The notes beneath the pieces were generated by a model, which was not told where the DNA came from, did not search any database, and saw nothing but the letters and a program-made list of their open reading frames with translations. The translations under genes and the position numbers were made by a program. Shown piece by piece: positions 698 through 18,711 of a stretch of 24,490 nt of DNA. Each line of letters opens with the position of its first letter. Position 1 is the first letter of the stretch. This stretch comes from a virus: positions 1-24,490 of IMG/VR virus record IMGVR_UViG_3300044615_001433; one strand, written 5' to 3'.

Positions 698-1411
698 TTA
701 CTTAAAGTTTTTCTTTTGCCAAAACTTTAGTCTATAACCATTTTGAAAACTAGATCTAACCCTAGATCTTTGCTCTTCTACTTTTGATGCTGGGAAGTTT
801 TTGTCTAACTCCATTGCCCATTCTTCTCTTTTGAATGGAAAAACCTGATACATTGGGGTTCCTTGCTTTATAGTTCCCTTAAAATTCTTCTTAACTAAAA
901 ATGAAAGATGTCCATCAGTAAAGTAATTATCGGTATCTACAACCGCATCAATTGCCTTTAGAGGAGATGGGGGCTGGTGCATTGGAGTTGTGAAGAAAGT
1001 ACTATATCCCTCATCTGTCTGAACCATCCATGTAGGGTGTATTCTTAATATTTTGTTGCAATATATTTCTTTGTCTATTGGCAAGTGAGAAACTTGCTCT
1101 TCTATATGTTCACTAATTAATGCGCTACGGTATTTATCCATATGAATAGGTAATTGTATATTCATATTTCCATCAGTTGTATCTATATAGATATCGCATG
1201 GAACTTTTAATATATACCCCATTGACATTGCATCAAAAAAGGCTTGACATTTTTTTACAGTAAGTCTCATTATTCCTCTATCAGGGATATCGCTTCCTGA
1301 TATTGCTGGTTGATCTTTGTACCAGTTAGGAACATTTTTTGTTCCTGGCTCTGGTTCTGGAACAACATTTGCCAATCCTGGATACATTTGTAAAAATCTA
1401 ATAGTGTTCAT
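698..1411 (-). CDS. Phage protein of unknown function, DUF6065-like
   Basis: A 237-residue soluble protein with no signal peptide or membrane segment. From memory it resembles a family of phage and marine-virus proteins (DUF6065). Features recalled for that family and seen here are an early NVPNWYKDQP segment, RLTVKKCQAFFDAMSMGY near residue 55, HPTWMVQTDEGYSTFFTTP near the middle, a VDTDNYF segment and a C-terminal GTPMYQVFPFKREEW. Its biochemical role is not known. The ATG at 1411 has a GAAAGG ribosome-binding site and its own TGCTATAAT promoter (1433-1441). It sits between a GNAT/hypothetical gene pair and the ribonucleotide reductase, at the border of tail and metabolic genes. The family name is moderately sure; function is open. 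Confidence 0.55.
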   Translation of the reverse strand: MNTIRFLQMYPGLANVVPEPEPGTKNVPNWYKDQPAISGSDIPDRGIMRLTVKKCQAFFDAMSMGYILKVPCDIYIDTTDGNMNIQLPIHMDKYRSALISEHIEEQVSHLPIDKEIYCNKILRIHPTWMVQTDEGYSTFFTTPMHQPPSPLKAIDAVVDTDNYFTDGHLSFLVKKNFKGTIKQGTPMYQVFPFKREEWAMELDKNFPASKVEEQRSRVRSSFQNGYRLKFWQKKNFK

Positions 1412-1443: not shown

Positions 1444-1860
1444 TTAAAGGTTTTGCCAGGTTTCTGAATCCTGCATCTCAAGCATGTAACCTGGAGCAAC
1501 ATAGAAATGCATTATCTTTTGATCATGCTCTACTATTGTTGAATTATCAGTACCGCCAGAGATTATCAAAAAACTGTTTCTTTCTGGATTTACAGTAACG
1601 AGATTATCCTGTAAGTGTATATTTTCAATAATAAAGCCAGTTTTACCTGAATAAATCTTTCCATAAAAGCAAAGATATTTTTTTAAGCCTGAAGTAAATC
1701 TTACGCCGTTGTTTTTACGTAGAACATCTTCATTAGAAAATAATAATTTGTAGTCTTGTTTTTCATAGTTTATGTTGTTTTCTTTGCACATAAAAATTAC
1801 TTGATCTTTTATTGAATTCAAAATGTTTTCTTCTATATTAGAAAGTTTATAAATGATCAT
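1444..1860 (-). CDS. Hypothetical phage protein, possibly a cupin-like fold
   Basis: A 138-residue protein that I do not recognise. The N-terminal half is charged (IEENILNSIKDQ, KENNINYEKQDY). The C-terminal half reads as short alternating beta-strands, with a histidine-bearing GTDNSTIVEHDQKIMHFYVAP segment that would fit a small double-stranded beta-helix (cupin or oxygenase type). That is only an impression from strand pattern. Its ATG overlaps the stop of the upstream GNAT-like gene by four bases (ATGA), so the two are almost certainly translationally coupled. It is the last gene of the unit that starts at 3884. Confidence 0.6.
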   Translation of the reverse strand: MIIYKLSNIEENILNSIKDQVIFMCKENNINYEKQDYKLLFSNEDVLRKNNGVRFTSGLKKYLCFYGKIYSGKTGFIIENIHLQDNLVTVNPERNSFLIISGGTDNSTIVEHDQKIMHFYVAPGYMLEMQDSETWQNL

Positions 1861-2363
1861 CTTGAAACTCTTTTACCAAAAAATACATATGGATAGGCTG
1901 GCTGATCAAAAAAGTCTTCTCTTAGATCTATTGCTTGTTCCACAGACGTATTCTTTACATGATTAGTTTTAAAAGCAGAGGAATACATTTTGTTGCCAAT
2001 TTCAGACCCATATTCATGAACAAGTGTTTTATGAAATAAATGCTTTAAAACTTTTGATCCGTAGTATAAAGATGTTTTACCAATACCCTTCATTCTAAAA
2101 ATTGGTGATACGGACATTCTATCTGTTAGAATATTTCCTATATCATCTTCTTTTTTCCATGTGGCATATACATCTGGGTAGTCATTTAAAATATGATCTC
2201 CAACACATACAGATCCAGTTGGATATTTGTCATTAAAATAAACACAGGCAATTCCGTCTAAAGTTTTATGGTTTTCAAAAAATACATAATAAAACCAAGA
2301 TCCCTCAAGTTCTTTAGGATATGTGAGTTCCTTAAAACTTGAGGTATCTAGGACCTTAATCAT
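1857..2363 (-). CDS. GNAT-like N-acetyltransferase
   Basis: A 168-residue protein. The stretch SVSPIFRMKGIGK followed by a helix (TSLYYGSKVLKHL) matches motif A of the GCN5-related acetyltransferases, where the R-x-x-G-x-G loop binds the pyrophosphate of acetyl-CoA. The preceding strands (GSWFYYVFFENHKTLDGIACVYF) fit the usual GNAT N-terminal sheet. The substrate is unknown. In this context an amino group on a host or phage surface sugar, or on a protein, is possible. The start lies only six bases beyond the stop of the Hint-like tail gene, and its end overlaps the next gene by four bases, so all three look like one unit. GNAT assignment rests on one motif and is moderate. Confidence 0.6.
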   Translation of the reverse strand: MIKVLDTSSFKELTYPKELEGSWFYYVFFENHKTLDGIACVYFNDKYPTGSVCVGDHILNDYPDVYATWKKEDDIGNILTDRMSVSPIFRMKGIGKTSLYYGSKVLKHLFHKTLVHEYGSEIGNKMYSSAFKTNHVKNTSVEQAIDLREDFFDQPAYPYVFFGKRVSR

Positions 2364-2369
2364 TGTAGA

Positions 2370-3884
2370 TTATTCTTCTGTTTGATATCCGTCGTAAACC
2401 AAGAAATGATCTGTGTAGAACATATCATAAGGTTCACAGTTGATAGATACAACTTGATGAGGAAGGTAAGAGATAATTAACTCAGTAATAGGTACCCAAG
2501 AGTTATTGTCTGTTGACCAGAGTTCATCTGTTTCTAATAGATCAATAGATGCAATCATCTTGGCTATACCGTCTCTTTTTACGAGCATGTAGTGAGACCC
2601 TGAATAGAACTCACCATTTATAGACACAGACTCTTGTGCTGTTGATGTTCCTATATGCATGATCGTTGTTTCTTTATCAGGGAACATAGAAAGATCTTGT
2701 GGATCCCCTTCCCAATTCTGAACATCTTGCATTGTAAAGTTCGTCCCTAGTCCAGGAACCTCTGTAGAAACAAGAACATCTCCTACTTGAAGATTAGATG
2801 CTTGAGTGTATCCGTTTGTAGTTAAGATTAATGTATTTACACTCACAGACTTTGGACCAGATGGCGTAAATCCATAAGCACCGAATGCTCCGAATGCTCC
2901 GAAGGCACCGAATGCACCGAATGCTCCGAAGGCACCGAATGCACCGAATGCACCGAATGCACCGAATGCACCGAAGGCTCCGAATGCACCGAATGCACCG
3001 AAGGCTCCGAAGGCACCGAATGGTGGCGGAGGACATGTAAATGATTCTGCTCCTGTACATGAGTTTACGTAAATAGCAACTGATGCTCCACAAGAACCAC
3101 GATACTCGGTATAAGCATAATTATTTGTGCATGCGACTGGCACTGGCACTGGTACTGGCTGTGGTACTGGCACGGGAATTGGTTGTGGCACTGGCTGTGG
3201 TACTGGCTGTGGCACTGGTACTGGCTGTGGTACTGGCACTGGCTGTGGCAGAGGAACAAATCCAAATGGTGTAAAACCAAATGGAACAAATGAGAATGCT
3301 GTTGTAACGCTTCCTGATGAAGACGATGTTCCAGAACTTCCATTTTGGTTATCTGCACGAACTGTGTATGTTTGTGATGAACCCATTTCTTGACCTACAC
3401 CTACTGATGTAGAAGATGTGTTTCCACTCTTTCCATCGCTAGATGCCCAGAAATAGTTTGTTATTGCTTTTCCACCATTTGCTGGTGCTGACCAGGAAAC
3501 GTTGTCTTGACCGACCTGAGTTGATGCACTTGGTGCAGATGGTGTTGCTGGAACTGTTGTTATAGGTACAGGTAGTGAAGGCACTGATGCTGGGGAAGTT
3601 CCTGAAGCATTTGTTGCTGTTACAGTAAATGTTGCAGTTGCTCCTGATGCAATTCCAGGTACAACAATTGGAGAAGATAGACCTGTGGCTATTTGTCCTG
3701 TACTTGATGTTGCTGTGTATGACGAAGCAGCAGGAGAATCTGCTGGTAGTTCAAAAGCAACTGATGCTGCTCCGTTGTTGAATGGACGATTTGTTCCTAC
3801 GTCTGTTGCAACAACATTAATTGGTGCCTTTGGTTCTAAGAAGTCGTTTGCCGACTGACTCATTCTACCTGCTTGCTTTGACAT
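2370..3884 (-). CDS. Tail protein with two Ig/FN3-like domains, Pro-rich stalk, Cys module, GAF repeats and Hint-like C-terminus
   Basis: A 504-residue modular protein. Residues about 18-108 and 109-200 are two beta-sandwich (FN3/Ig-like) domains; the second has the typical APSASTQVGQDNVSWSAP and YTVRADNQNGSS strands. Next come a Pro-Val-Gln stalk (about 210-252), one cysteine module (CTNNYAYTEYRGSCG through FTCP, about 254-288) and about 15 Gly-Ala-Phe triplets. The C-terminal 160 residues (345-504) resemble a Hint domain: TLILTTNGYTQASNLQVGDVLV, an SGSHYMLVKRDG block with H431, and VVSINCEPYDMFYTDHFLVYDG with H493. The usual N-terminal Cys/Ser nucleophile and C-terminal Asn are not evident, so it may be structural rather than self-splicing. 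The ATG at 3884 has a GGGAGA site and a TATAAT overlapping the upstream stop. Likely displayed on the tail. Confidence 0.75.
   Translation of the reverse strand: MSKQAGRMSQSANDFLEPKAPINVVATDVGTNRPFNNGAASVAFELPADSPAASSYTATSSTGQIATGLSSPIVVPGIASGATATFTVTATNASGTSPASVPSLPVPITTVPATPSAPSASTQVGQDNVSWSAPANGGKAITNYFWASSDGKSGNTSSTSVGVGQEMGSSQTYTVRADNQNGSSGTSSSSGSVTTAFSFVPFGFTPFGFVPLPQPVPVPQPVPVPQPVPQPVPQPIPVPVPQPVPVPVPVACTNNYAYTEYRGSCGASVAIYVNSCTGAESFTCPPPPFGAFGAFGAFGAFGAFGAFGAFGAFGAFGAFGAFGAFGAFGAFGAFGAYGFTPSGPKSVSVNTLILTTNGYTQASNLQVGDVLVSTEVPGLGTNFTMQDVQNWEGDPQDLSMFPDKETTIMHIGTSTAQESVSINGEFYSGSHYMLVKRDGIAKMIASIDLLETDELWSTDNNSWVPITELIISYLPHQVVSINCEPYDMFYTDHFLVYDGYQTEE
2881..3024 (-). repeat. Nine-base tandem repeat encoding (Gly-Ala-Phe)n
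   Basis: Sixteen consecutive 9-base units of the plus-strand form CCGAANGCN, in frame with the minus-strand tail gene, encoding about 15 GAF triplets. Third positions vary (T, G or A), so the peptide appears to be under selection rather than only recently slipped. Glycine, alanine and phenylalanine alone suggest a hydrophobic, silk-like or elastic segment. Confidence 0.85.
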
Positions 3885-3906: not shown

Positions 3907-3912
3907 ATTATA
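3907..3912 (-). promoter_or_regulatory. -10 element TATAAT overlapping a stop codon
   Basis: The minus strand reads GCAGTATAATAC. The TAA inside TATAAT is the stop codon of the fibre gene ending at 3908. The element lies 22 bases before the ATG at 3884, and a GGGAGA ribosome-binding site fits in the short leader. TGn is absent here. Confidence 0.5.
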
Positions 3913-5923
3913 CTGCTAAGTCTCCGAAGATCAACCAACCAGAGGCAGTCTTCATTGCTGTTACAACTGAGTTTGTAGTTCTAAACTTTCTTCCTGGTGT
4001 TCCAACTACTCCATTAGCGTCAGAGAACTGGGCTCCTGTGCCTGATGCCTGGTAGAAGTCAATTGACTGTCCAGTTGAGTATCCTGTTGCAGGAAGAGTG
4101 ATTGTGACTGCTCCAGTTAGTGGAACAAACTTGTCTGCTTCTCCTGCTGCTAATGTTGCATTTGATGAGATTGCTGTTGCAAATGTTGTTACAGATGGAA
4201 CTCCCAACTTTGTTTGAGTACCGTCTGAGAAGACTATACCAGATGAAGGAGTTACGGTTGTTGCTTCAAGTGCTCCAACCTGTAGTGCATCAAGTGATCC
4301 CTCTGTAAAGTCTACTGTTGTTGAAGGTTCTGTTGTAACTCCCTTAAACAACTTCCACTTGTCTGCAGAAACATCTCTTACGATACCTGAGTGCTTGTTT
4401 GCACCATCATTGTATCCAACCACAATACCTAGGTCAACTGTATTTGCTGCATTTTGGTGAGCAAGTTGGACCAGGTTATCTTCGATTGTGATAGATGTTG
4501 CAGATGCGCTAAACTGTGTACCGTTAACTGTTAGGTTTCCGTCAACAACAACGTTTCCGTCAACTTCCATGTTACCTGTAAATGTTTGGTTTGCTGCATT
4601 CTTGTATGCTAACTGTGAGGTATCTGAAATACCATGAACATCGGTAGTATCTGAATTGTGTGTTGATACAGCGCTGTCTGCATATGTCTTAGTTGCGACT
4701 GTGCTGTCAATATCAAATTCTTCTGTTTCAAGGTTCCAGTCAATTCCTACACCTGCAAGTGCTGACTGATCTACTGTCACACCTGTAATAGCGTTAGAAA
4801 GTTCTGTTTGAGTTACCAAGACTGTTGTGTCTGGGATACCGTGAACATTTTCTGTTAATAGGTTGTGGTCTGAAATCTTTGTATCTGCTGCAGTTGCTGC
4901 ATCTGCAATAGCCTCAGTCTTTGCTGTGCCAATCGCTGTAGCCTGTGCAGTTGATACTGGTTTGTCTACATCTGCTGTATTATCTACATTTGTGAGACCT
5001 GCTGTAACTATTCCGATTGCAGTTGAAATCTTTGCATCTGCTTCTGTTCCAGCCTCAGAAATTGCTTCACTCTTTGCTGTTGCTACATTTCCTGTAGTTG
5101 CTAGAAGGGATGTATCTGCAATTCCGTGTACGCCTAGAGTAGTTGAGTTATGGGAAGTTATTGCGTCTGAAACATCTGAAAGTAGAGCAAGGTTTGCTGT
5201 ATCTTCGATTCCGTGTACGCCTGTTGTGCTTGAGTTGTGAGACCCAATTGAATCTGAAACATCTGAAAGTAAAGCAAGATCATTTGTGTCAGCAATTCCG
5301 TGTACATTTAAAGTACTTGAATTGAAGTCAGTAATCTTTGCATCTGTGATGTCTCCTGCTTCTTCAATCGCTGCATCAATTGCTTCTTGCTTTGCTGTTG
5401 ATACGTTTGTAAGAGTTGCAAGAAGTGCTGTGTTAGCAATTCCATGAACACCTAATGTCTGTAGATTGTGATCAGAAACTGCCGTGTCTGCATAACTTTT
5501 TGTTGCAAGGTTTGCTGTGTCTGCAATTCCATGTACATTTGTTGTTTTGTCTTTGTGAGTTTCTAAAGCACCTGATATAGTGTTACTTACCTGGGTAATT
5601 GATGCTGCTCCTTCTAAAACTACTAGGTCAACTCTTGCATTTGTTGCAAGCGCTGCCAAGAAATCAGGATTGTCTCCTAGTGCGTCTGCAATTTCTGATA
5701 AAGTATTCAGAGACTCTGGAGACATTCCTACAACTGAATCAATGGCTGCCTGAAGTTCTGTTGCGTTAGCAAAATATACTAATTGGGACCATGTAGATGT
5801 TCCGTTACCCATCTTAAACTTGCTGGTATCAGTTTCAAAACCGATTTCACCTGCTGCTAAAACTGGGTTTGCTGCCGTCCATTGGGCTGCTAATCCTCTA
5901 CGCTGTTGCATTCTAGTTGCCAT
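3908..5923 (-). CDS. Tail fibre protein with Mtd-type N-terminus and seven VHGI modules
   Basis: A 671-residue structural protein. Residues 1-50 (QQRRGLAAQWTAANPVLAAGEIGFETDT, then KFKMGNGTSTW) match the N-terminal domain of the phage major tropism determinant family, which anchors fibres to the baseplate. About residues 110-420 hold seven variants of a module H-N-x-x-T-x-x-VHGI-x-D-T-x-x-LA joined by Ala-rich helices. The C-terminal third carries GNLTVNGT, SITIEDNLVQLA and VDLGIVVGYNDG motifs that are common in phage fibre proteins, ending in a compact beta domain (TGQSIDFYQASGTGAQF to the terminal GDLAV). The ATG at 5923 has a strong AGAAGGAGA site. A GVGIDWN segment is shared with the fibre gene ending at 16678. 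Probably a trimeric fibre involved in receptor contact. Confidence 0.8.
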   Translation of the reverse strand: MATRMQQRRGLAAQWTAANPVLAAGEIGFETDTSKFKMGNGTSTWSQLVYFANATELQAAIDSVVGMSPESLNTLSEIADALGDNPDFLAALATNARVDLVVLEGAASITQVSNTISGALETHKDKTTNVHGIADTANLATKSYADTAVSDHNLQTLGVHGIANTALLATLTNVSTAKQEAIDAAIEEAGDITDAKITDFNSSTLNVHGIADTNDLALLSDVSDSIGSHNSSTTGVHGIEDTANLALLSDVSDAITSHNSTTLGVHGIADTSLLATTGNVATAKSEAISEAGTEADAKISTAIGIVTAGLTNVDNTADVDKPVSTAQATAIGTAKTEAIADAATAADTKISDHNLLTENVHGIPDTTVLVTQTELSNAITGVTVDQSALAGVGIDWNLETEEFDIDSTVATKTYADSAVSTHNSDTTDVHGISDTSQLAYKNAANQTFTGNMEVDGNVVVDGNLTVNGTQFSASATSITIEDNLVQLAHQNAANTVDLGIVVGYNDGANKHSGIVRDVSADKWKLFKGVTTEPSTTVDFTEGSLDALQVGALEATTVTPSSGIVFSDGTQTKLGVPSVTTFATAISSNATLAAGEADKFVPLTGAVTITLPATGYSTGQSIDFYQASGTGAQFSDANGVVGTPGRKFRTTNSVVTAMKTASGWLIFGDLAV

Positions 5924-5984: not shown

Positions 5985-7343
5985 TTACACTCCACCGCCA
6001 TCTAGCACTAGGTTAAGAGAAGCGATATCTTGTATTGCTGCCTTAACAAATGCTGTTGTAGCCACCTGTGTTGTGTCAGTTCCAACTTCAGCAGTAGGGG
6101 CTAAAGGTGTTCCTGTAAATGTTGGAGACTGTGCTGGTGCGATGTCAAAGAAAACTGATCCATCGTTTGTAAACTGCCACTTATCTGCAGTCTCGTTCCA
6201 GCGAACCTGAACATTTGCCTCATCTCCACGAATAACTCTTATTCCAGAGTTTTCAGTTGGATTTCCACTTGTAAAATTGCTATTTAAGTCAATGAGGTTA
6301 TCAGCCAGAGAAATTGTCTCGCTGTTGATTGTTGTAACTGTTCCGCCAACTGATAGGTTGCCAGTAACTGTAAGGTTTCCGCCTACTTCTGCGTTATCAT
6401 TTACGTAAACCTTTCCAGTTCCGTTACCTGACAAAGACAGATCTGTATTTGTTGTCTTGCTTGTAACTGTATCAGACTTTAGTCCATTGCTGAATGTCAC
6501 TCCGTTACCGTCAGCGCTTGAGAAATTAGCGCCTGCTTCTACAACTACTGGTCCCTTTATATTAATAGAACCAGTTCCTGTTGGATCAAATTCAATATTA
6601 CCGCTTCCGCTTGTTCGTAGTCCTAGGTTTTCATTAATGTCTGCTGAAACAACGATTGCTCCTGATTCATCCTGAAGAACCTTCTGTCCGTTAACATACA
6701 GAGATCCTGGACCAACATAAATATCTTTCCACATATTTGTAGGAGATCCTAGGTCGTATGTGTTGTCTTCAGAAGGAACAATATTTCCGCCTGCTGTTAC
6801 TGTAGGCAGAACCACTGTTCCAGTAAATGTTGGAGAAGCCTTTGGAGCCTTTAGGTCAAGTGCTGTATTGCGAGCACTTGTTTCTGCTGCTACCTTTGCA
6901 GTAGCGTCTGCTGCTGCCGTAGCCTCTGCTGCTGCTTGAGCGGCGTTAGCCTTGGTAGTAGCATCTGCTGCTGCTGTTGCTTCTGCACCTGACTTAGCGG
7001 TGTTTGCCTTGGTTGTGGCATCTGCTGAGGCTGCAGAAATTGCTTCTGTCTTAGCAGTTGCAATATTTGTATTTACTGTAGCAAAAAAGTTTGCGTCGTC
7101 GCCAACTGCTGCTGCGAGTTCGTTTAGAGTATCTAGGAGACCTGGAGCACCATCAATAAGTTCTTCAATTGCTGCTGCTGCGTCTGCTGTAAAGTATGTC
7201 AGAGTGGCCCAACGATTTGTTCCATCACCAATCTTAAACTTGTTAGTATCAATTTCAAAACCTATTTCTCCAGGTGATAAAATTGGATTTGCTGATGTCC
7301 ACTGCGCTGCAGTGCCTCTTCGCTGTTGTTGTCTTACTGCCAT
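5985..7343 (-). CDS. Tail fibre protein with Mtd-type N-terminus and C-terminal fibre repeat
   Basis: A 452-residue protein. Its N-terminus (QQQRRGTAAQWTSANPILSP, then GEIGFEIDTNKFKIGDGTNRW) is a close paralogue of that of the adjacent 671-residue fibre. A GAPGLLDTLNELAAAVGD helix and an Ala/Thr-rich coiled coil with repeated ADATTKANAAQAAAEATA follow (about 60-160). The C-terminus holds GNLTVTGNLSVGGTVTTIN, SLADNLIDLNSNF and a phage fibre repeat of the SPTFTGTPLAPTA...TTQVATTAFV type. The assembly is probably a trimeric coiled-coil shaft tipped by beta structure. The ATG at 7343 has an excellent AGGAGG site. Its promoter TGTTATAAT (7381-7389) gives a leader of about 30 bases holding a small hairpin. 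The two Mtd-type genes probably arose by duplication and then diverged in the shaft and tip. Confidence 0.8.
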   Translation of the reverse strand: MAVRQQQRRGTAAQWTSANPILSPGEIGFEIDTNKFKIGDGTNRWATLTYFTADAAAAIEELIDGAPGLLDTLNELAAAVGDDANFFATVNTNIATAKTEAISAASADATTKANTAKSGAEATAAADATTKANAAQAAAEATAAADATAKVAAETSARNTALDLKAPKASPTFTGTVVLPTVTAGGNIVPSEDNTYDLGSPTNMWKDIYVGPGSLYVNGQKVLQDESGAIVVSADINENLGLRTSGSGNIEFDPTGTGSINIKGPVVVEAGANFSSADGNGVTFSNGLKSDTVTSKTTNTDLSLSGNGTGKVYVNDNAEVGGNLTVTGNLSVGGTVTTINSETISLADNLIDLNSNFTSGNPTENSGIRVIRGDEANVQVRWNETADKWQFTNDGSVFFDIAPAQSPTFTGTPLAPTAEVGTDTTQVATTAFVKAAIQDIASLNLVLDGGGV

Positions 7344-11627: not shown

Positions 11628-11657
11628 TTGACTTTTGACATAATTTTATGTTATACT
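11628..11657 (+). promoter_or_regulatory. Sigma70-type promoter of the transglycosylase gene
   Basis: TTGACT (11628-11633), an 18-base spacer and TATACT (11652-11657) with an upstream TGT (extended -10). A second TTGACA copy at 11635-11640 is too close to serve the same -10. It is one of the few promoters here with a good -35 and gives a leader of about 40 bases. Confidence 0.7.
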
Positions 11658-11663
11658 TGGTAG

Positions 11664-11683
11664 TAACACCTACCAGGGTGTTA
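11664..11683 (+). promoter_or_regulatory. Leader hairpin of the transglycosylase message
   Basis: TAACACC and GGTGTTA form a perfect 7-bp stem with a 6-base loop, starting almost at the predicted transcript end and finishing 11 bases before the AAGGAGG site. It could stabilise the message or tune initiation. It has no long T run, so termination here is unlikely. Confidence 0.45.
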
Positions 11684-11704
11684 TTGTTTTCTAAGGAGGA
11701 AACT

Positions 11705-12268
11705 ATGATTAAATTTATCGAAAGAAACAAAGAGATCATTAGCACACTCAGTATCGTGGCACTTGTCAGTGTATTTTCTAATGCTGCTAATGCTACACCA
11801 GAACTAAGTACAAAGAACAACCTTAGCCTTGAACAGGCTCAGACAGTAGACACAACCTCGAAAGAGGTTTTTTTGGTTTCTAAGGAAAAAATGTTGGAGA
11901 GTTTTGCAAACAAGACATCTCTTACTGACTTAGAACTAAAGAAAATGCTATCCCTGGTTGGATTTAAGGGCCAGAACCTTGTTGAGGCTTGGGCTGTAGC
12001 AAAGAAAGAGTCTAATGGTCGCCCATTGGCTTTTAACGGAAATGAAAGCACTGGAGACTCCTCATACGGAATATTCCAGATAAATATGATTGACTCGCTT
12101 GGCCCTGATCGTAGAGACAAGTTTGAGTTATCTGCAAATGCTGAACTTTTTAACCCAGTTTTAAATGCACAAATTGCACACCACATGAGCAACGGTGGAG
12201 AAAACTGGACTGCCTGGAAAGGCATGACCCCAAGAACTAAGTTCTGGATGTCTAAATTCCCTAAGTAG
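11705..12268 (+). CDS. Secreted lytic transglycosylase-like lysozyme
   Basis: A 187-residue exported cell-wall hydrolase. Residues 1-30 are a signal peptide: a basic start, a hydrophobic core IISTLSIVALVSVF and a likely cut after SNAANA. A low-complexity linker follows to about residue 65. The catalytic region is SLT/lysozyme-like: AWAVAKKESNGRP with the probable catalytic glutamate E102, then GDSSYGIFQIN (117-127) and a C-terminal NAQIAHHMSNGGENWTAWKG. Such enzymes cleave peptidoglycan glycan strands, so it may serve lysis or cell-wall passage. The ATG at 11705 is chosen for its ideal AAGGAGG site; an upstream in-frame ATG at 11648 lies before that site. It is a lone plus-strand gene, ending one base from the convergent epimerase gene. 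A strong terminator-like hairpin lies inside its linker (11854-11874). Confidence 0.85.
   Translation: MIKFIERNKEIISTLSIVALVSVFSNAANATPELSTKNNLSLEQAQTVDTTSKEVFLVSKEKMLESFANKTSLTDLELKKMLSLVGFKGQNLVEAWAVAKKESNGRPLAFNGNESTGDSSYGIFQINMIDSLGPDRRDKFELSANAELFNPVLNAQIAHHMSNGGENWTAWKGMTPRTKFWMSKFPK
11854..11874 (+). terminator. Intrinsic-terminator-like hairpin inside a coding sequence
   Basis: AACCTC (11854-11859), a GAAA tetraloop and GAGGTT (11864-11869) run into seven consecutive T residues (11868-11874). The GNRA-type loop on a C-G closing pair makes a stable hairpin, and the T run is on the plus strand only. It lies at codons 50-57 of the transglycosylase gene, so a working terminator would cut off most messages before the catalytic region. 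Its shape is textbook. Whether it acts while ribosomes translate the region is unknown. Confidence 0.55.
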
Positions 12269-12269
12269 G

Positions 12270-13301
12270 TTAGTGCTGGGGCTTTTCTATTTGATCTTTA
12301 ATCCAAAGATAGGTATTTTTAATTCCTTCTTTTAAGGTCATAGAATAGTCCCAGCCTAATTCTTTTCTAACCAAGTCATTATTGGAATTTCTTCCTCTAA
12401 CACCTAGTGGGCCAGGAATATGGTTCTTATCTAAAACCTTACCCTCTATGCTACAAGCAATGTCAACCAACTGATTGATAGTAACCATCTCTTCAGATCC
12501 AATATTGACTGGACCCTTAAAGTCAGACTGCATAAGTCTTCTTGTTGCCTCTATGCATTCATCTATGTATAAGAATGAACGAGTCTGTTCTCCGTCCCCC
12601 CAGATTTCTATAGAATCATCTGCTTTTATAACTTTTCGACACATTGCAGCAGGTGCTTTCTCTTTTCCACCGTCCCAAGTTCCTTCTGGGCCATATATGT
12701 TGTGGTATCTAGCAATTGCTACTGGTATCTTGTTATTTTTATTAAATGCCAAAAACATTCTTTCACTAAATAACTTTTCCCATCCATACTCGCTATCAGG
12801 ATCTGCAGGGTATGCATCAGATTCTTTAAGTCCAGGGTTATTAACATCTAACTGTTTGTAGTCTGGATACATGCAGGCAGAACTTGAATAAAATATTTTG
12901 GTCTTATTGATTTCATATTTTTCGTTAAGTCTTGACTGCGCTCTAAGAAGATTAAGATTAATTAAAGCAGAGTTTTCCATAATTTGAGAATCGTTGTCTC
13001 CAGTAAAGATATATCCAGCACCACCCATATCTGCTGCAAATTGATAAATCTCGTCAAACCCCGTAATTAACTTATATGGAATTTCATTGTAGAAGTTTCC
13101 CTGATATCCCTTAAACTGAATAGCCTTTTCAACATTTTCATAAACAGACAAATCTCTTTCGATAAACTCATCTGCCTGTGTTTCTGAAAAATCTGGATGC
13201 TTTAAATCAACACCTCTAACCCAGTATCCTTCTGACTTTAACCTATTTACCATGTGGCTACCTATAAAGCCACCTGCTCCTAGAACTAATGCTGTCTTCA
13301 T
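12270..13301 (-). CDS. GDP-mannose 3,5-epimerase-like nucleotide-sugar epimerase
   Basis: A 343-residue extended short-chain dehydrogenase. The Rossmann loop GAGGFIG is at 8-14, the catalytic Y172-x-x-x-K176 is in EYGWEK, and the SSSACMYP segment carries the conserved C143. The specific fingerprint is that of GDP-mannose 3,5-epimerase as known in plants: AADMGGAGY, KESDAYPADPDSEYGWEK, RYHNIYGPEGTWDGGKEKAPAAMCRK, WGDGEQTRSF and HIPGPLGVRGRNSNN. Those enzymes convert GDP-D-mannose to GDP-L-galactose (and GDP-L-gulose). The ATG at 13301 follows a GAGGAA site. It is the last gene of the glycan cassette and would supply the donor for the fucosyltransferase-like enzyme upstream. Exact product specificity is inferred from the fingerprint. 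Confidence 0.85.
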   Translation of the reverse strand: MKTALVLGAGGFIGSHMVNRLKSEGYWVRGVDLKHPDFSETQADEFIERDLSVYENVEKAIQFKGYQGNFYNEIPYKLITGFDEIYQFAADMGGAGYIFTGDNDSQIMENSALINLNLLRAQSRLNEKYEINKTKIFYSSSACMYPDYKQLDVNNPGLKESDAYPADPDSEYGWEKLFSERMFLAFNKNNKIPVAIARYHNIYGPEGTWDGGKEKAPAAMCRKVIKADDSIEIWGDGEQTRSFLYIDECIEATRRLMQSDFKGPVNIGSEEMVTINQLVDIACSIEGKVLDKNHIPGPLGVRGRNSNNDLVRKELGWDYSMTLKEGIKNTYLWIKDQIEKPQH

Positions 13302-16677: not shown

Positions 16678-18711
16678 CTACTCGTAGCAGTCTCCTGTTG
16701 AACAGTCACCAAATTCTCCACCGCATGTAGCGTCACCGCACACATAACCAGAAGATGCTGTAGGTGTTGGTGCTGTAGGTGTTGGTGCTGCAGGAACTGG
16801 TGTTGCAGGAACTGGTGTTGCAGGAACTGGTGTTGCAGGAACTGGTGTTGCAGGAACTGGTGTTGCAGGAACTGGCGACTCAGGGCATGTAAATGATTCA
16901 TTTCCACAAGAGTCAACGTAAATAGTTACAGATCTTCCACAAGATGCACGATATTCAGTATAACTAGAAACATTTGGTGTACATGCTACAGGTGTCACAG
17001 GTACAGGTGTTGGTGATGCAGGTACAGGTGTTGGTGATACAGGTACAGGTGTTGGTGATGCAGGTACAGGTGTTGGTGATGCAGGTACAGGTGTTGGTGA
17101 AGGACATGTGAATGTCTCATTTCCACAAGAGTCTACATAAATTGTAACTGGTCCACCACAAGATGCACGATATTCAGTATAACTAGAAACATTTGGTGTA
17201 CATGCTACTGGAGTTACAGGAACTGGGACTGGAACTGGTATTGGTGTTGGTGAAGGACATGTGAATGTCTCGTTTCCACAAGAGTCTACGTAAATTGTAA
17301 CTGGTCCACCACAAGATGCTCTGTATTCTGTGTAGTTAGAAACATTTGGTGTACATGCTACAGGTGTTGCAGGTACAGGAGTAGGTGCTACAGGATTAGG
17401 ACATTCAAATGTTTCATTTCCACAAGAGTCAACGTAAATTGTAACAACTGCATTACAAGATGCACGGTATTCAGTGTAACTGTCAACGTTTGGTGTACAA
17501 GCAACTGGGGTTGCAGGAACTGGTGTTGGTGTTGTAGGGACTGCAGGACAATTACTTGGCGCAGAAGGCATTGAAGTAGTTGAGCAAGAGTAATTTGTTC
17601 CGCCTCCGCCTGGAAGTCCAGAAACTACAGCAGCATATGCAGAACATGCGTTTCCAATGTCAGTAGTTACAACATTGTTTGCGTCAACTGTAAATTGTTC
17701 CTGTACTGGAGATCCTTGGTAACAATACGAAATGTATGCTGTTCCTGTTGTTGCTATTGGTGCGACAGGTGCGACAGGTGTAGTAGGAGTTGGTCCTACA
17801 GGAGCAACTGGTGTTACAGGAACTGGTGTTGGTCCAACTGGTGTTGTAGGAATTGGTGTAGGTGCAACGGGTGCAACAGGTGTTGGTGTTGGTGATGTAG
17901 GAATAGGGGTTGGAGCAACTGGTACTGGTGTAGGTGCAGCAGGCACTGGTGTAGGTGCTACAGGAGTTGGAGTTGCAATATTTTCATAAACATCTCCATA
18001 AAAAACCCAAGCATCTGTTCCAACCTTTAACAAGGTTCCTTTACTATATTGTCCATCAAGATACATTCTTGCACTTTTGCTATTAACTGTAACTCCGATT
18101 TCTGGAGTAATAGTTGTTGTTCCTGTTCCGTACTCAATTAAATCAATTTTATATCCAACCTGAAGCGCTGTTGTAGAATTTTTGGGGACTGTAAGTGTAA
18201 TTGCTGATGACGTAGAAAGTAGTTGTGTGCTTCCTGCATATGATGGCAATAAAGAAAAATTAGATGTTTGTTCTAATACCGTTGATAAATAGTTAAGGTC
18301 AAACCTTTCATCTACAATGTTCCAGTCAATTCCGTCTCCAGCAAGTTCATTATAACCGCCTACTGCTCCAGCAATAGCATTTGCAATACCTGAGTCTACA
18401 TAAGACGTTGTTGCAAGTAGTGCTGTGTTTGGTATTCCGTGGACATCTAGAGTATCTGCATTATGTGTAGCAATAGCAGCATTTCTATTTACTACCTCTT
18501 CTGCATCTGCATCTACAAGGTTCTGAAGGTGCTTTGCAATTGAGTCTTCCAAAAGAAGTGATGTGTTTGTATTTGCACCATCATAGGTGTAAGATCCATA
18601 GTGATAAAGTCTTAAGGCTGCCTGAATATCTGCTGCATCTGAAAGGCCAGGGATTTTGGTATTGAAAAGTCCATCACCGTTAGGCGTGTTATCAATATTC
18701 TCTGCTGCCAC
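16678..18711 (-). CDS. Pro/Thr-rich tail fibre with four cysteine modules
   Basis: A 677-residue fibre starting with GTG at 18711 (SD-like AGAGGTGA and TGGTATAAT upstream). The N-terminus FNTKIPGLSDAADIQAALRLYHYGS looks like a conserved phage anchoring segment. Next come one VHGI module and a GDGIDWN segment shared with the 671-residue fibre, and a beta domain ending in DAWVFYGDVYEN (about 240). The remaining two thirds alternate Pro-rich TPVPATP/SPTPVPA linkers with a module of about 35 residues: C-TPN-V-x-x-YTEYRASCGGPVTIYVDSC-GNETF-x-CP. It occurs four times, and once more in the 504-residue tail protein. Each copy has four cysteines, so local disulfides are likely outside the cell. A separate Cys-containing segment (YISYCYQGSP to SNCP) precedes them. 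The Thr/Ser-Pro linkers are ideal O-glycosylation or proline-hydroxylation targets. Confidence 0.8.
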   Translation of the reverse strand: MAAENIDNTPNGDGLFNTKIPGLSDAADIQAALRLYHYGSYTYDGANTNTSLLLEDSIAKHLQNLVDADAEEVVNRNAAIATHNADTLDVHGIPNTALLATTSYVDSGIANAIAGAVGGYNELAGDGIDWNIVDERFDLNYLSTVLEQTSNFSLLPSYAGSTQLLSTSSAITLTVPKNSTTALQVGYKIDLIEYGTGTTTITPEIGVTVNSKSARMYLDGQYSKGTLLKVGTDAWVFYGDVYENIATPTPVAPTPVPAAPTPVPVAPTPIPTSPTPTPVAPVAPTPIPTTPVGPTPVPVTPVAPVGPTPTTPVAPVAPIATTGTAYISYCYQGSPVQEQFTVDANNVVTTDIGNACSAYAAVVSGLPGGGGTNYSCSTTSMPSAPSNCPAVPTTPTPVPATPVACTPNVDSYTEYRASCNAVVTIYVDSCGNETFECPNPVAPTPVPATPVACTPNVSNYTEYRASCGGPVTIYVDSCGNETFTCPSPTPIPVPVPVPVTPVACTPNVSSYTEYRASCGGPVTIYVDSCGNETFTCPSPTPVPASPTPVPASPTPVPVSPTPVPASPTPVPVTPVACTPNVSSYTEYRASCGRSVTIYVDSCGNESFTCPESPVPATPVPATPVPATPVPATPVPATPVPAAPTPTAPTPTASSGYVCGDATCGGEFGDCSTGDCYE
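16790..16879 (-). repeat. 15-base tandem repeat encoding Pro-rich linker
   Basis: Five perfect copies and one degenerate copy of GCAGGAACTGGTGTT (plus-strand form) encode TPVPA units. The near identity of the copies at DNA level suggests recent slippage, so length may vary between related phages. Confidence 0.85.
16880..17503 (-). repeat. Four direct repeats of the cysteine module
   Basis: About 105-base copies at roughly 16883-16987, 17102-17206, 17255-17359 and 17399-17503 encode the C...YTEYRASC...VTIYVDSCGNE.F.CP module. The middle two are almost identical at DNA level, the outer ones more diverged. This points to stepwise duplication within the gene. Confidence 0.8.
17000..17100 (-). 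repeat. 21-base tandem repeat encoding SPTPVPA units
   Basis: About five copies of GGTACAGGTGTTGGTGATGCA (plus-strand form, one base longer than the 20 adjoining bases shared by all copies) lie between two cysteine modules. They encode Ser/Thr-Pro-rich linker. Confidence 0.8.

Follow-up and report, generated by a model that had tools for sequence, protein, structure and literature searches.

A Hint domain with altered active-site residues, predicted to be N-cleaving, ends a phage fibre-like protein and is associated with a GNAT-like partner gene

A fibre-like protein of 504 residues (P0001), encoded on the minus strand at positions 2370-3884 of the window (the whole stretch of 24,490 nucleotides analyzed here, taken from an IMG/VR virus record), ends in a Hint domain that, on balance, we take to be a C-terminal, N-cleaving autoprocessing domain resembling B-type bacterial intein-like domains (BILs), with a predicted cut between Lys345 and Ser346. 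This reading is based on the fold of the domain, on the position and invariance of its Ser1, His, and Asp residues, on the existence of cousins with Cys1 and a terminal His-Asn, and on the association of a lysine at position -1 with a partner gene. Inteins, hedgehog, and bacterial exported proteins all have known Hint domains of the autoprocessing kind. In the present case, a catalytically altered Hint domain with a matched partner gene ends the fibre-like proteins of an aquatic phage group that is widespread. Whether such fibres mature through a Hint domain thereby becomes directly testable, and the domain would offer a small natural N-cleaving module of the Ser type, together with a possible modifier of the junction lysine.

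Layout and setting of the fibre-like protein

From its N- to its C-terminus, P0001 consists of a beta-rich, fn3-like region with a weak PKD-like match in Pfam, a Pro/Val/Gln-rich stretch (3132-3254), a Cys-rich knob of 34 residues (CTNNYAYTEYRGSC...FTCP, 3030-3131), 15 Gly-Ala-Phe repeats (2883-3017), and the Hint domain (2391-2849), all on the minus strand. Profile and structure matches delimit the Hint domain as Ser346 to Asp498 (1-153 in intein numbering), and a tail of six residues separates Asp498 from the stop. Neighbours in BFVD are labelled as Fibronectin III, PASTA, or Hint proteins of uncultured Caudovirales. The two upstream neighbours on the same strand (3908-5923 and 5985-7343) are tail proteins that carry Mtd_N (major tropism determinant N-terminal) domains (Pfam E 2.6e-13 and 4.3e-14, respectively) and match tail-fibre PHROGs, which places P0001 in a tail-fibre cluster and makes it, by gene setting, a putative fibre protein.

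The Cys-rich knob, which is single in P0001, occurs in four copies (CTPN...YTEYRASC...TCP) spaced by PTPVP-type stretches in a second fibre-like protein (16678-18711, minus strand). The tail region also holds a gene resembling NAD-dependent epimerases and GDP-mannose dehydratases (12270-13301, minus strand), and a lysozyme-like SLT_3 protein (11648-12268) is encoded on the opposite, plus strand within the run of tail genes.

Evidence for the Hint fold

The Hint segment of P0001 has no Pfam match at E<=1, and the window's Hint family does not reach the curated Pfam cut-offs of PT-HINT, Hint_2, or Intein_splicing. Among the 38 distinct relatives of the domain that make up profile A1, the best Hint-type Pfam matches were to Intein_splicing (E 0.059, three members) and Hint_2 (0.1, two members). 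Compared with proteins of known structure, the A1 profile matched 2lwy, a Clostridium bacterial intein-like domain, with an E of 1.3e-6, and the more diverse profile A2 (23 sequences) matched 2lwy (1e-5), the gp41-1 intein (9.5e-5), and the Ser1 PolB1 intein 9hth (0.015). An AlphaFold2 model of the segment, built from the A1 alignment (pLDDT 89.5, pTM 0.84), found Tetrahymena BIL2 as its best Foldseek match in the PDB (E 1.7e-7), followed by 2lwy, inteins, and hedgehog. Structural alignment with VIA-align gave Z scores of 17.7 to BIL2 (6y75; 138 residues, 2.3 A), 17.3 to the DnaB intein, 16.9 to 2lwy, and 16.2 to hedgehog (1at0).

The initial annotation had read a Hint-like fold in the last 160 residues from short strings at 2370-2852 and had suggested structure prediction against Hint and intein folds as a check. 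The strings do lie at the C-terminal end of the protein, on the minus strand of the 504-residue frame, and the model recovers BIL domains, inteins, and hedgehog at Z 17.7-16. On these profile and model matches we consider the Hint fold settled. With Ser346 at the block A nucleophile position and His431 in block B, the domain belongs, by its modelled fold and its N-terminal motifs, to the Hint superfamily. Hint domains in uncultured phage proteins are already known to databases, since BFVD labels some of the relatives 'Hint domain containing protein'. Within the titles, abstracts, and passages searched, which included passages of PMC5259590, PMC3556154, PMC5526547, PMC6143709, and PMC8790156, we found no description of a phage fibre that terminates in a Hint domain, and the same portions of the literature yielded no account of the Ser1/Asp state, the constraint on the Ser1 family, or the pairing described below.

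An altered active site with invariant residues

Structural alignment sets residues 9 to 161 of the Hint model, which correspond to Ser346 and Asp498 at the two ends, against residues 1 to 440 of the Mtu RecA intein. Model residue 9 also pairs with hedgehog Cys258. In the alignment with 9hth, the SGSH of the P0001 domain falls on the TADH of the intein's block B. These alignments thus place a serine at the nucleophile position, retain the block B histidine, and replace the terminal Asn by Asp. The predicted nucleophile Ser346 (Ser1; codon TCT, 2847-2849) is preceded by Lys345 (2850-2852), the -1 residue of the bond predicted to be cut. Block B contributes Ser428 at position 7 (2601-2603), where most inteins have Thr, and His431 at position 10 (2592-2594), and Asp498 (2391-2393) stands in for the terminal Asn, all coordinates again referring to the minus strand. 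Around the end of its Hint domain, the window protein reads Tyr-Asp-Gly, giving Gly499 at +1 and no penultimate His, and its block F position 4 (F:4) is Ser.

Three IMG/VR profile or protein scans returned 61, 222 (80 kept), and 177 (80 kept) relatives, and a fourth, with an Alexandravirus-type query, returned 20. Together with four named phage records, the scans gave 216 loci, which reduce to 108 distinct domain stretches, 106 of them complete. Two incomplete rows (L026 and L089), the window itself (L062), and a doubtful bacterial hit (L194) were excluded, and a sequence with a stop inside the domain stretch (L021) was left out of A1 only. The bacterial hit, a weak relative of 39 residues whose inspected frame is full of stops, was the single relative found alongside seven pattern matches in one scan of bacterial genomes. 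Among cultured phages, the window's own Hint domain had no match, and matches were obtained only with divergent members of the family.

The complete domains fall into 89 with Ser1/Asp and 17 with Cys1/Asn, with no mixtures. Throughout the Ser1 family, Ser1, the His at B:10, and the terminal Asp are each present in 89/89 distinct complete domains. At B:7, 87 domains have Ser, one has Thr, and one has Ala, and F:4 is Ser, Thr, Cys, Gly, or Asn, but never Asp (0/89). The disappearance of the block F Asp from all members, together with a B:7 that is mostly Ser, indicates that the active site of this family is altered. The residue ahead of the terminal Asp is His, Tyr, or Phe, the +1 residue varies, and 2-42 residues (median 6) lie beyond the Asp. 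A block F Cys nucleophile was also considered, as INCEPYD looked invariant, and was rejected: Val or Thr occupies the position in L090-L093, L095, and L117, and the invariance stems in part from the search patterns.

A rapid tree of all 106 domains, built with the tested columns omitted, served to estimate constraint. Within the Ser1 domains, the median number of changes over the 153 columns is 14, and 13 columns are unchanged, including Ser1, Thr6, His86, and Asp153. The Ser1 codon is TCN in 58 domains and AGY in 31, with at least six switches between the classes and no other residue at the position; the block B Ser is TCN in 87/87. The invariant residues could be structural, and invariance near EPYD tells little because many of the search patterns required EPYD-like motifs (one pattern of the second IMG/VR scan included the terminal Asp, and that of the third did not). 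The initial annotation, whose interval begins at Lys345, had found no N-terminal Cys or Ser nucleophile in a Val/Asn context, and overlooked Ser346, the very next residue, which aligns with residue 1 of inteins and with hedgehog Cys258. Its description of a domain without the usual splicing residues holds for the terminal Asn, which is Asp498, and for the +1 nucleophile, which is Gly, but not for Ser1 and the block B His. With these two residues invariant and the N-terminal half of the chemistry predicted to be in place, the cleaving role is the one now favoured among those it had offered, with anchoring or cross-linking as less favoured possibilities.

A junction lysine and its GNAT-like partner

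Directly downstream of P0001 lies a gene for a protein of 168 residues (1857-2363, minus strand) that is GNAT-like, with a candidate acetyltransferase fold, according to its model and weak profile matches. Acetyltransferases account for almost all top-ranking Foldseek rows for the model (pLDDT 82.5; best E 4.4e-3), structural alignment reaches a Z of at most 7.5, and the profile matches are to RibT (E 0.073) and, in one member, Acetyltransf_7 (E 0.037). YPD and RxxG motifs are conserved in the partner. Its homologues adjoin the Hint gene in most loci, in 56/88 clusters at 99.5% identity and in 15/23 clusters at 60%.

Lysine occupies position -1 in 69 of the 89 Ser1 domains, whereas just four lysines fall between -2 and -20 in the entire set of 89. 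Pairing was counted over 85 domains, with four (L164, L172, L147, and L168) omitted because their partner status is unknown. The partner accompanies 63 of the 65 domains with Lys(-1), nearby in 59 and elsewhere in the record in four, versus none of the 20 domains that lack Lys(-1), where absence is judged on records that are mostly fragments. Of the 397 domain residue traits compared, Lys(-1) best predicts the presence of the partner (mutual information 0.67, next 0.33), and the two agree in 83/85 domains. In L072 and L073, both fragment records, Lys(-1) is present and the partner was not found; direct reading of L082 gives Gly at -1. In the reverse direction, two partner-based scans gave 61 loci, 60 of which have the partner by profile, these being loci rather than distinct sequences, on contigs many of which overlap the earlier count. 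The Hint gene lies upstream in 56 of the 60, and in the other four the partner is at a contig edge. Where Ser1 is visible (55 loci), Lys(-1) is present in 53, and the remaining two (L243 and L244) have Lys(-2)-Gly(-1).

On the tree, Lys(-1) changed at least five times and the partner at least six times. Well-supported branches yield three independent pairs, which are in the same direction or neutral and never opposite; with so few independent events, the link is not significant across lineages by the sign test.

In a group of the window's own type (L019, L024, L025, and L074-L081), Lys(-1) has been lost and the GNAT-like gene is absent too; in the first three of these, the gene after the Hint gene encodes a DUF6065-like protein of 237 residues. 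The window carries a phrog_7084/DUF6065-like gene of its own (698-1411, minus strand), with homologues in haloarchaeal tailed viruses at 31-34% identity. In three loci without the partner (L082, L133, and L138), two genes of about 220-250 codons come next after the Hint gene; their similar HDH-containing sequences appear, by eye, dioxygenase-like.

Proposed mechanism and alternatives

We infer an N-O acyl shift in which Ser346, aided by His431 and Ser428, would attack the carbonyl of Lys345. Water or a different nucleophile could then resolve the ester formed on Lys345, Asp498 being a possible base for this step, and the mature fibre would end at Lys345, with the 159-residue Hint part released. 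The GNAT-like partner may act on or recognise the Lys345 junction. The C-terminal site, the lysine at -1, and the switching of Ser1 codons without a change of residue favour this N-cleaving reading, against which count the loss of the block F Asp, the altered B:7, the exceptions among the loci (L072/L073 and L243/L244), and the weaker nucleophilicity of Ser relative to Cys. A bolder version, which we offer tentatively and hold to be unlikely as a whole, is a two-gene fibre system in which the Ser1/Asp Hint domain activates the fibre's C-terminal Lys as an ester and the GNAT-fold partner acylates or otherwise acts on the same Lys. If true, such a system would yield a phage fibre whose C-terminus is modified or covalently transferred.

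The strongest competitor, although itself rather improbable, is that the Hint fold has been retired from chemistry and persists as a stable cap, a trimerisation domain, or a receptor-binding fibre tip. Phage fibre tips are often plain beta domains, and the terminal location of the Hint domain would suit such a role, as would the loss of both the Asn and the block F Asp, along with that of the +1 nucleophile in the window protein. A retired fold would, however, leave unexplained why Ser1 stays constant in 89 sequences despite the repeated codon-class switches, and why lysine is fixed at -1 while nearly absent from the residues before it, with Ser1 and Lys meeting at the predicted cut.

Considerably less probable is a hedgehog-like transfer, in which a lipid, sugar, or amine would attack the Ser1 ester and tie the fibre covalently to the virion, the partner, or a host surface. 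The conserved terminal Asp could act as the base of such a reaction, an acyltransferase-like gene is linked, and hedgehog Hint (Hog) domains stop at the first acyl shift, according to a passage of PMC7664689. Nevertheless, Ser replaces Cys, no acceptor has been identified, and nothing like a sterol-recognition domain extends beyond the Hint domain of P0001.

True splicing, with Asp taking the role of Asn, which would excise the Hint domain and join the last residues to the fibre, is very unlikely: 42/89 relatives do combine S1/SxxH/F4 Ser/HD|S (His-Asp then Ser), and inteins with a terminal Asp are reportedly able to splice (as Amitai, Dassa, and Pietrokovski are said to have described in 2004), but the terminal Asn and block F Asp are missing, the window protein, ending in Tyr-Asp-Gly, has neither a +1 nucleophile nor a penultimate His, and the C-extein would comprise just 2-42 residues.

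Comparison with known Hint systems

By analogy, the P0001 Hint domain may act in the manner of B-type BILs or of an intein's first half. B-type BILs are defined, in a passage of PMC7765530, as having intein motifs minus the C-terminal motif, and the likeness rests on the Hint fold shared with 2lwy and 6y75, which are both BILs though not necessarily of the B type, and, set against that definition, on the presence of the inteins' N-terminal motifs and the absence of an intein-type C-terminal motif. The window family differs from B-type BILs in having Ser1 and an invariant terminal Asp, in having also lost the block F Asp, in occupying the extreme C-terminus of a phage fibre-like protein, and in having a GNAT-like partner.

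Hog domains resemble the window family in fold, in C-terminal position, and in the first acyl shift without a second (the passage of PMC7664689 cited above), whereas the family has Ser1 instead of Cys1 in 89/89 and no sterol-recognition region, only six residues separating the P0001 domain from the end of the protein. Hog identity was rejected on the Cys1 test and the missing C-terminal region. The mini-inteins gp41-1 and Ssp DnaB share the fold, blocks A and B, and the equivalence of the end residues; the window family, unlike them, lacks a terminal Asn and a sizeable C-extein and is not inserted in a conserved protein. Assignment to the class 1 inteins was rejected given the terminal Asp in 89/89, Gly499 at +1, and the six residues that follow, and class 3 was rejected because Ser1 is present; F:4 in the window protein is also Ser, not Cys. 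Pretoxin Hint (PT-HINT) domains match the Alexandravirus version (Pfam E 9.4e-6, slightly below the curated cut-off), whereas the window family has no such match and no toxin domain downstream of Hint.

The canonical cousins are found in jumbo phages of the Alexandravirus/Rivsvirus type, where Cys1, Thr at B:7, the His, the F:4 Asp, the terminal HN, and a +1 Thr are present in 17/17 domains; the window family departs from them at Cys1, TxxH, the block F Asp, and HN|T. The GNAT-like partner was not found in the three Alexandravirus/Rivsvirus records searched. The virion protein of these phages (AD1_108, pEaSNUABM5_00108) resembles P0001 as a Hint-terminated linker protein in a tail-fibre operon. 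The Alexandravirus-type proteins are collagen-like, with a tail of about nine residues beyond the HN, and in the two that were scanned the entire length matches phrog_38766, which is annotated as 'virion structural protein'.
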